From Candidatus Harrisonbacteria bacterium (GTDB taxonomy: Bacteria; Patescibacteriota; Minisyncoccia; UBA6257; WO2-44-18): a stretch of DNA of 35,050 nucleotides. The position numbers and the translations under genes are program-made. The DNA lies in contig JACOXP010000011.1 in NCBI GenBank assembly GCA_016182295.1, forward strand, positions 1 to 35,050, given 5' to 3'. Under the pieces are notes generated by a model. The model saw only the letters and a program-made list of their open reading frames with translations. It had not been told where the DNA came from and ran no database searches. Within the stretch, counting starts at the first letter, position 1. Every line of letters starts with the position of its first letter. This document shows, piece after piece, positions 2,857 to 4,739 of this stretch.

Positions 2857-3022
2857 ATAATTCTAAATTTTGAAAATAAAAATGCCTCGCAGGATTACTC
2901 CTGCGAGGCACATGAATTGTGTCCAACCGTCCAACGGTCTAGGACTCGCACACGACGAGAAAACGATCGCCCTCACCCTACTCAAACCCGTCCCAATCGA
3001 GGCTCAAGTACCGCCCGCCGCC
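2857..3022 (-). repeat. Variable-region block, copy 1 (DGR-like VR, anchor and hairpin)
   Basis: 166 nt aligned without gaps to 23190-23355. In coding direction: GGCGGC (3017-3022), then a variable stretch 2966-3016 with 15 differences from copy 2, then 27 identical nt 2939-2965 ending in a shared TAG, then a non-coding tail with about four differences and a 12-bp hairpin. Changes are at codon positions 1 and 2 except one. This matches the VR / IMH / hairpin order of diversity-generating retroelement targets. Confidence 0.8.
2883..2910 (-). terminator. 12-bp GTAA-loop hairpin (terminator and/or DGR hairpin)
   Basis: TGCCTCGCAGGA and its perfect complement enclose a 4-nt loop that reads GTAA (a GNRA tetraloop) on the minus strand, followed by TTTTTATTTT. 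It works on paper as a terminator. It also sits where DGR targets carry a required hairpin downstream of the variable region. An identical copy is at 23216-23243. Confidence 0.8.
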
Positions 3023-3211
3023 TGGGGCGGTGACGGCTTTGTGGCCGCAAACCCGCCGGAACTCTTCACGGTTCACTCCCTGCAGATTTGCGCAAAGCAA
3101 ATCCGACAACAGACCGGACTCCAGCAGGTCCTGCAACTGTTTAGCAGGCGTCTGCTTTTGCAGGATCAGGTTCAGCACCTGATTCCCTTGTGCCAAGGTT
3201 GCGTCTTTCAT
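2978..3211 (-). CDS. Short variable C-terminus protein (DGR-type target candidate)
   Basis: 77 aa from an ATG with an AAGGGAG ribosome site 5 nt upstream. The N-terminal part (QLQDLLESGLLSDLLCANL, NREEFRRVCG) is a helical module that I recall from candidate-phylum hypothetical proteins but cannot assign. The last 13 codons fall in the variable block shared with 23272-23865. Reading ends at TAG 2978-2980. Beyond it the frame stays open through FLVVCES to a second TAG at 2939-2941, exactly where the paralogue ends; the paralogue has TGG (Trp) at the first position. So the gene is either truncated by 12 residues, read through, or carries a stop produced by diversification. It lacks the long central domain of the paralogue. 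The promoter candidate is at 3286-3314. Confidence 0.7.
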   Translation of the reverse strand: MKDATLAQGNQVLNLILQKQTPAKQLQDLLESGLLSDLLCANLQGVNREEFRRVCGHKAVTAPGGGRYLSLDWDGFE

Positions 3212-3314: not shown

Positions 3315-3371
3315 CCTCGCCTCTAGTAAGTTCAACAAGTAAGCGCGCCTCTATCCACTCTCTTCAGCAGC

Positions 3372-3407
3372 GCTATCCTATCGGATAGTACTATCCGATA
3401 GGATAGC
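3372..3407. promoter_or_regulatory. 36-nt perfect palindrome, double operator
   Basis: Two head-to-head 18-nt units, each built on CTATCC...GGATAG, together form a perfect 36-nt palindrome. It lies 7 nt after the stop codon of the TrpR-like repressor gene and upstream of the short variable-protein gene. The same motif occurs twice in the repressor's own promoter region (3919-3936, 3966-3993), so this is probably a repressor binding site. Confidence 0.65.
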
Positions 3408-3414
3408 AGGTTTG

Positions 3415-3906
3415 TTAATTTCTGCCCTTGCCTGTTCCACCTCTCCGATACTTTTTCGGCAACGTTGGGTTGTATTTCAAAAAATTCCAACGCGGGCCGC
3501 TGATCTGCGGAGGGTTTTCTAAAATAAAGGCTAGGTGGTCAAGCCATTCCGAAAAAATTGATTCGGATTTCTGATTTTTCACCTCGGAATGAAGGATTTT
3601 TGTTTTCCGATCACGATTCAGCGCGTAACGGCTTTTATATTCTTGATTGGCTAAAATAGTTTTCTTAACGGTGCTTATCGTCACAGGCGATATCCATAAT
3701 TTCTCGCCTATTGATTTATACGAATGGCCCTTTTTAACAAGCGAAAGTGCGGCCAATCTCCGCGCGACGCTTTCTCTTTCTTGGTCAGTCAATAGAGCGT
3801 TGAATAAACCGCCAAGCTCCCGAGTGGATTTTGCCTTAGAAAATTCTTCCAGTATTTTTTCCCAAATTATGTCTTTTAATCCTTTTGAAGTTCTAATTGG
3901 TTTCAT
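3415..3906 (-). CDS. TrpR/YerC-type helix-turn-helix repressor
   Basis: 163 aa. Residues about 35-85 (LLTDQERESVARRLAALSLV, KKGHSYKSIGEKLWISPVTI, STVKK) carry the TrpR/YerC/YecD fold signature: a helical core and then the DNA-reading helix-turn-helix. The basic C-terminal 75 residues (KNQKSESIFSEWLDHLAFIL...) are an extension I do not recognise. CTATCC/GGATAG palindromes surround the gene: one overlaps the promoter -10, one abuts the -35 and a double one follows the stop. That pattern strongly implies autoregulation. The ligand, if any, is unknown; the sites differ from the E. coli Trp operator, so tryptophan control should not be assumed. Confidence 0.85.
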   Translation of the reverse strand: MKPIRTSKGLKDIIWEKILEEFSKAKSTRELGGLFNALLTDQERESVARRLAALSLVKKGHSYKSIGEKLWISPVTISTVKKTILANQEYKSRYALNRDRKTKILHSEVKNQKSESIFSEWLDHLAFILENPPQISGPRWNFLKYNPTLPKKYRRGGTGKGRN

Positions 3907-3918
3907 AATTATTTTTCC

Positions 3919-3942
3919 ACTATCCGATAGGATAGTATCCTA
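3919..3942 (-). promoter_or_regulatory. Operator over the repressor -10 box
   Basis: ACTATCCGATAGGATAGT (3919-3936) is palindromic apart from the central C-G to T-A step. It overlaps a second 15-nt palindrome at 3928-3942 (TAGGATA-G-TATCCTA). This covers the -10 and the expected transcription start of the gene at 3415-3906. Confidence 0.7.
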
Positions 3943-3965
3943 AATAAAAACAATGTGGTTTGCAA
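3937..3965 (-). promoter_or_regulatory. Promoter of the TrpR-like repressor gene
   Basis: Minus strand: TTGCAA (3960-3965), 17-nt spacer, TAGGAT (3937-3942). It is flanked on both sides by CTATCC/GGATAG operators. Confidence 0.55.
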
Positions 3966-3993
3966 GCGGCACTATCCTATAGGATAGTGCCGC
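3966..3993. promoter_or_regulatory. 28-nt perfect palindromic operator
   Basis: GCGGCACTATCCTA and its exact complement. The core matches the other sites of the repressor. It lies immediately upstream of the -35 hexamer at 3960-3965. Confidence 0.7.
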
Positions 3994-4055: not shown

Positions 4056-4739
4056 CTAATCTCTTAAAAACTCTCGGCCCCAGCCGCAGTATTCACATTC
4101 GCCGTGGGTTTTTGGCATCGGGCCTTTGATGACTTCTACCGCTTCTCGCAAAACTCTGACCGCTTCATTTGGGTCAATGGTCACTCTTTTCGGCACCACT
4201 TCAAATTTCACCATCCCGTTTTCAGACACCACGCTTGGGAAATAATATATAAGGTAAGCGTAATTGTCGGGCTTCATGTTATTTTCTCTAAGCAAAAGTC
4301 CGTAGCAGTTGAGTTGATTCTGATAAAAACTTTCGCCGCCTTCCTTCGGAGGAAAACCCCGAGTTTTATAGTCCAATGGAATAAAGAGTTTTTTGGAATT
4401 TATTCCGAGGTCGTCCAAAGCGCCGCTCAAAGTGGCGCCGCTTTCCGGATCGCTCCAAGTAAGTCCGGTGCGCCAATTGCGCCATTTATTTAAAAGCTCG
4501 ATATCGGCAAAAAGCTCCGCGTCAATTTTTCCATCCACTTCCGGCGGCATTTTCCCAACTTCGCGGTATTTATCGAAATAATCTTTAATGACCAAATCCA
4601 TTCCGCCCGGCAAAGAAGGGAAAATCCCCCGCGGCCGGTGGATGTTTTCTTTTTGATCAAGCCAAAAGCATTTCGGACATTCTAAGAAAACATTAAGCGC
4701 CGAGGGTGAGAGCCGGATTTTGCCGTCTTTAGAAACCAT
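4056..4739 (-). CDS. RecB/Cas4-like PD-(D/E)xK nuclease
   Basis: 227 aa. The order of motifs fits the RecB-family nuclease fold with an iron-sulfur cluster: Cys21 and Cys24 (LECPKCFW) near the N-terminus, GALDD and FIPLDYKTRG forming the acidic/Lys active site in the middle, YQNQLNCYG giving the conserved Gln, and Cys215 and Cys218 (CEYCGW) at the end. Four Cys of this spacing bind a 4Fe-4S cluster in Cas4 and AddB-type proteins. It probably cuts or resects DNA ends. There is no CRISPR array or other cas gene nearby, so a stand-alone repair role is more likely than adaptation. TACAAT at 4747-4752 lies 7 nt ahead of the ATG, suggesting a leaderless transcript divergent from smpB. Confidence 0.85.
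   Translation of the reverse strand: MVSKDGKIRLSPSALNVFLECPKCFWLDQKENIHRPRGIFPSLPGGMDLVIKDYFDKYREVGKMPPEVDGKIDAELFADIELLNKWRNWRTGLTWSDPESGATLSGALDDLGINSKKLFIPLDYKTRGFPPKEGGESFYQNQLNCYGLLLRENNMKPDNYAYLIYYFPSVVSENGMVKFEVVPKRVTIDPNEAVRVLREAVEVIKGPMPKTHGECEYCGWGREFLRD

Follow-up and report, generated by a model that had tools for sequence, protein, structure and literature searches.

The question raised by this locus is why a gene for a small TrpR-like DNA-binding protein should lie between perfect palindromes, and whether these are simply operators of the encoded repressor. The window (the whole stretch of 35,050 nucleotides analysed here, from Candidatus Harrisonbacteria) is contig C17 of a draft genome, G000, of 632 kb and 91% completeness. 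On its minus strand, the genes follow one another in the order of a PD-(D/E)XK protein gene (4056-4739), the TrpR-like gene (3415..3906), an ORF of 77 aa (2978-3211) and argS (1211-2803).

The locus and its protein

A perfect palindrome of 36 nt (3372..3407, hairpin fold z -7.8), consisting of two 18-nt sites placed back to back, is found 3' of the TrpR-like gene. On the 5' side, an inner site, ACTATCCGATAGGATAGT (3919..3936), adjoins the start codon and is overlapped by a 15-nt palindrome (3928-3942), while an outer, perfect palindrome of 28 nt, GCGGCACTATCCTATAGGATAGTGCCGC (3966..3993, hairpin fold z -7.2), lies further upstream. All palindromes named by the first-pass annotation were present at the positions given there, and their number is far above chance: with up to three mismatches allowed, the motif CTATCCKATMGGATAG has an expectation of 0.18 occurrences in the window, against five found; four of these are exact, all at the TrpR-like locus. 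The proposed palindrome-gene-palindrome unit spans 3366..3993 on the minus strand, has an architecture common to 59 of the 97 long homologs considered below, and sits in the junction between the PD-(D/E)XK gene and argS. These two genes abut in relatives G001 and G003 and are separated by about 1.25 kb in the window, so the arrangement in the relatives can be read as an empty version of the locus. The 77-aa ORF is probably not part of the element, since G005 has a relative of it (58 aa, 84% identity), likewise located downstream of the PD-(D/E)XK gene.

The same annotation had described this neighbour as a DGR-like target gene whose expression the repressor might control. Neither that description nor the link to the repressor is supported: no match to a reverse transcriptase (RVT_1) was found in G000, which is 91% complete, and searches of Pfam and PHROG returned no family for the 77-aa protein.

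Two further observations were made at this junction. In G005 (contig C11, L286), the place of the window's TrpR element downstream of the PD-(D/E)XK gene is taken by a gene judged transposase-like by eye, and the junction may be a hot spot for insertion. Separately, the argS gene of the window contains two in-frame, near-palindromic stretches of another family (2613-2638 and about 2258-2283), which encode AFAKASAD and an SLGEGGG-type stretch and were not seen in the compared argS regions of G001 and G003; another protein-coding palindrome family may be present here.

The TrpR-like protein is 163 aa long, with a TrpR domain at approximately residues 10-87 and a tail in which no domain is recognised. 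Pfam Trp_repressor (PF01371) was matched at 5.8e-11 over residues 15-87 (42.7 bits against a cutoff of 27), as it was by all 21 aligned homologs. The protein was originally assigned a TrpR/YerC helix-turn-helix; membership of the Trp_repressor superfamily stands, but the scores fall below the equivalog cutoff of NCBIfam TrpR (TIGR01321; 23.1 vs 67.25 bits) and the curated cutoff of YerC/YecD (TIGR02531; 25.7 vs 42.2 bits). An AlphaFold2 model built with 14 sequences predicts the TrpR domain confidently (block means of about 89-93, residues 11-80) and the tail mostly with low confidence, the exception being a helix at 118-130 predicted with moderate confidence. The best PDB matches retrieved with Foldseek were YerC-type and TrpR structures, all with E >0.001 and a probability near 1. 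No catalytic domain was recognised in the protein by Pfam/PHROG, AlphaFold2, Foldseek or homolog profiles. The tail is modelled with low confidence, and no nuclease-like structure is among the top Foldseek matches. A viral origin was set aside, as one scan of viral contigs returned no relative of the protein.

Matched palindromes in relatives and their probable recognition

Relatives of the TrpR-like protein were found in 17 of 61 genomes by protein search and in 64 of 285 by a class-wide profile search. Named relatives obtained with a profile include Parcubacteria groups such as Harrisonbacteria, Wolfebacteria and Liptonbacteria. The comparison sample consisted of draft genomes, one per species and mostly from different genera. 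Long, perfect palindromes were observed on both sides of the gene in these relatives, with a core that varies from gene to gene. This was quantified by requiring one 14-nt near-palindrome, with at most one mismatch, in both flanks within 300 nt. Long homologs (at least 112 aa) were compared with short, YerC-type homologs of about 104 aa and with control ORFs of the same loci. A matched core on both sides was obtained for the 59 long homologs mentioned above, for 0 of 19 short homologs and for 2 of 141 control ORFs (Fisher tests, with kinship ignored, 3e-27 against controls and 2e-7 against short homologs). An earlier, stricter version of the test had given 54/121 against 1/145 controls and had missed the window's own gene, because its 3' palindrome, as a double site, is centred differently; the rule was loosened after this, and the controls were subjected to the identical rule. 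Among the 38 long homologs that fail the test, several, including L021, L015 and L033, have matched palindromes that are farther off or interrupted.

The position and sequence of these palindromes suggest how they may be used. A TATAAT-like hexamer occurs within 16 nt after the 5' palindrome at 22 of 52 loci, against a background of 11%. Residue 75 of the predicted recognition helix (V75 in the window) varies together with a base of the half-site: glutamine is found with G at a ratio of 20:1 and other residues at 2:12, the pairing being that of Gln with TATG and of Asn/Ser with TATC (p=1.3e-6, kinship ignored). The underlying table was compiled by automatic matching of a half-site pattern; for eleven loci, the core was read manually. 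The switch was also seen within one closer group, in which L014 and L017 combine Asn with TATC and L028 combines Gln with TGTG. This covariation is good, if not final, evidence that the TrpR-like protein reads the palindrome. Autoregulation, which the first-pass annotation had considered a strong case, is plausible in view of the promoter position and the residue-base covariation. It would account for only part of the picture, however, as copies of the palindrome are also found 3' of the gene, between genes, in repeats and within genes.

Copies elsewhere and insertions in genes

The genome scan that had been proposed for defining a regulon was carried out, and it revealed few sites, distributed non-randomly and resembling inserted repeats, which is neither a simple regulon nor the random scatter that would have spoken against the motif. 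G000 contains eight exact sites, four at the TrpR-like locus and one each on C5, C15, C16 and C19. Those on C5, C16 and C19 form the tip of a dispersed hairpin repeat of about 80 nt, which adjoins tRNA-Arg on C5 and tRNA-Ser on C16; no tRNA was found beside the repeat on C19, where it lies between two copies of a stretch of about 100 nt. These two copies (L008, 1376-1680) are near-identical and correspond to the end of a coding gene. The C15 copy is located within a different structured repeat. A further core, CTGACGCGTCAG on C5, has no cognate gene detected in G000. A two-mismatch match to the motif inside what appears by eye to be an HtpX-type gene (L001 236-251; G000:C5:1372-1387) may be due to chance.

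When the search was extended to 61 genomes with a degenerate core pattern, matches were obtained in 11, of which 10 possess a TrpR-like gene, and a reversed control pattern gave none in the same 61. Background probably explains the matches in G005, where the core is unlike that of its gene, and in G059, for which no gene was found. Across the remaining nine genomes, most scattered cores equal or nearly equal the core of a resident gene; cores with no cognate gene detected in their own genome were found in G002 (one) and G006. Of 43 scattered sites inspected, 31 were intergenic and 12 fell within ORFs, one or more of which may be spurious. The copies sit between convergent genes, within larger repeats and in frame within housekeeping genes, and it is the copies between convergent genes and inside coding genes that prevent a regulon from being the whole story.

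G008 contains 19 identical cores, four of them at the gene, and across all 19 the 16-bp core is invariant, even though several of its inner positions were unconstrained in the search pattern. Outside the core, both sides have changed in 8 of 16 arm pairs; 3 of 500 shuffles attained this value, and the scores of slid controls were far lower. Repair of near-palindromes by template switching would also fit such paired arm changes. In G006, one element is present at two different places; its copies are 96% identical over 260 nt, and their palindromes show compensatory differences. The similarity begins 11 nt outside the 5' palindrome; directly upstream of this point the two sequences differ. A tRNA-adjacent scaffold repeat has one position that either lacks a palindrome or contains different palindromes, and both states occur within G004. 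For two of the tip palindromes of G004, no cognate gene was detected in that genome. A hairpin repeat of the form GCCGCACCCCG...CGGGGTGCGGC was seen to adjoin tRNA or tmRNA genes in several genomes (L215, L216, L217, L218, L222, L230 and L232). On its far side, part of the tRNA 3' end appears to be duplicated, and the repeat may constitute a separate, tRNA-targeting element.

Insertion within a coding gene is best illustrated by trmH. One loop of the encoded protein contains, in frame, the palindrome of the resident TrpR-like gene in G031 (GGCACTATCACGCGTGATAGTGCC) and, in G052, the palindrome of one of the genes of that genome (GCTACAACTTGCGGTAGC). The trmH of G050, which belongs to the same genus as G031 and encodes an 83% identical protein, and those of other aligned relatives have a shorter loop with no palindrome. 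With up to two mismatches, GCTACAACTTGCGGTAGC occurs in 10 copies in G052 and in none of six other genomes, one of which is from the same family. The ksgA gene of G052 contains two palindrome copies in one linker. It was discarded as a clean empty-site case, since the palindrome occupies a loop of variable length that is of similar length in G050, and trmH is for this reason taken as the main example. Compared with its relatives, the KsgA protein of G031 (L233) also has another, unrelated insertion (CRRPPEGREVIISVPAGHLPKGDK, about 25 aa), and a similar SGHLPQGD-type insert is found elsewhere in the KsgA of G005. No target-site duplication was found.

A proposed repressor-centred palindrome family and its alternatives

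The palindromes are specific to each genome, occur as matched copies flanking the gene and are present or absent at comparable sites. The bracketing palindromes, the copies elsewhere, the matching pattern in relatives and the insertions in housekeeping genes point to an apparently self-spreading family built around a repressor rather than a known transposase. We therefore regard it as fairly likely that the locus is a gene-bearing copy of a REP-like family of palindromic elements, the cognate gene of which encodes a TrpR-type repressor. In the window's genome, exact copies beyond the locus number only four. This counts against the interpretation, as do the failure to find a target-site duplication, the lack of a recognised catalytic domain, the palindromes with no cognate gene detected in their own genome, the variable ksgA loop and the 38 long homologs that fail the matched-palindrome test. 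In the proposed scheme, the repressor gene would be placed between two copies of the palindrome that its product recognises, and a dimer of the protein would bind the 16-18 bp core and repress its own promoter at the 5' copy, as promoter position and covariation suggest. Comparing filled with empty sites indicates that the palindrome, alone or within larger repeats, has spread to other genomic places and, in relatives, also in frame into genes. The arms would be kept self-complementary by selection or by a copying process, in which case a hairpin or cruciform form probably matters for spreading. In the least certain step, the protein, having no recognised catalytic domain, would most likely mark or protect the hairpins, and host replication or repair enzymes or some recombinase would copy them. 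A bolder proposal is one we would put forward only tentatively: that a stand-alone TrpR-type protein with no known transposase domain is itself the agent by which its cognate hairpin spreads, in-frame insertion into host genes included, in a new class of mobile element.

The alternative that survives best, and which we consider a credible if less probable account, is that an unrelated recombinase or replication template switching moves the palindromes, with the TrpR-like protein being a passenger repressor that has adapted to bind them. The lack of a recognised catalytic domain and the palindrome sets with no detected cognate gene would both be expected in that case, and the perfect arms and compensatory changes fit template-switch correction of near-palindromes. 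However, core and protein differ together between genomes, and copies are largely confined to gene-bearing genomes, which suggests that the protein matters for persistence. An ordinary autoregulated TrpR-family repressor with a small regulon, for which all palindromes are operators, appears unlikely. It would agree with the TATAAT-like hexamers at the 5' palindromes, the residue-base covariation and the small number of copies in the window's genome, but it does not explain why most long homologs have a matched copy 3' of the gene, why many scattered copies lie between convergent genes or within genes, why copies occur in a tRNA-adjacent repeat with a varying tip palindrome, or why trmH has an in-frame insertion in two genomes. 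Mobilisation by an IS200/IS605-type HUH (Y1) transposase encoded elsewhere in the genome, as suggested by the resemblance in layout to RAYT genes, which lie between two inverted REPs (PMC2817692, PMC3733652), is very improbable: Y1_Tnp (PF01797) was not found in G000, G001, G002, G004, G031, G034 or G052 (incomplete drafts), all of which have TrpR-like genes, and its presence in 19 of 61 genomes showed no clear association. That the palindromes are transcription terminators or chance occurrences is scarcely credible, since, despite their good folding as hairpins and a terminator-like call at 3372-3407 on the + strand, TTTT follows within 10 nt of only 4 of 52 3' palindromes, and identical cores on both sides of a gene, specific to each genome, are not expected by chance.

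Returning to the reading of the locus as a repressor-bearing palindromic family, the protein-site pairing is specific enough to match genome by genome, which allows the spread of short hairpins to be tested directly, and the repressor-site pairs form a natural series that can be used for specificity studies. Recurrent in-frame insertion would moreover be taking place in some of the smallest bacterial genomes, those of Patescibacteria, and, were the TrpR-like protein itself shown to drive movement, the element would belong to a new class. No description of a TrpR-type gene with matched palindromes was found in open-licence PMC papers. Compared with the YerC/YecD and TrpR repressors, the protein has the same Pfam superfamily and helix-turn-helix fold but an extra tail of about 60-75 residues, and matched flanking palindromes accompany the long genes and not the YerC-type homologs of about 104 aa. 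The system resembles REP/RAYT in that a cognate gene is flanked by two repeat copies, extra copies are scattered, often downstream of or between convergent genes, and compensatory changes preserve the palindrome, with some copies within genes (PMC2817692, PMC3733652). It differs in that the gene is a TrpR-type repressor with no HUH Y1 domain, the defining feature of RAYT, and in that a GTAG or CGTC tag was not noticed by eye in the listed copies. Palindromic repeats with no known transposase were known earlier, in the form of CGTC REPs (PMC3733652); in those described here, the kind of cognate gene that accompanies them is unexpected. Rickettsia palindromic elements (RPE) are likewise inserted in frame in protein-coding genes (reviewed in PMC10969869), as is the case for trmH here, but they are about 150 bp long, whereas the present palindromes are of about 18-32 bp and come with a dedicated DNA-binding protein gene.
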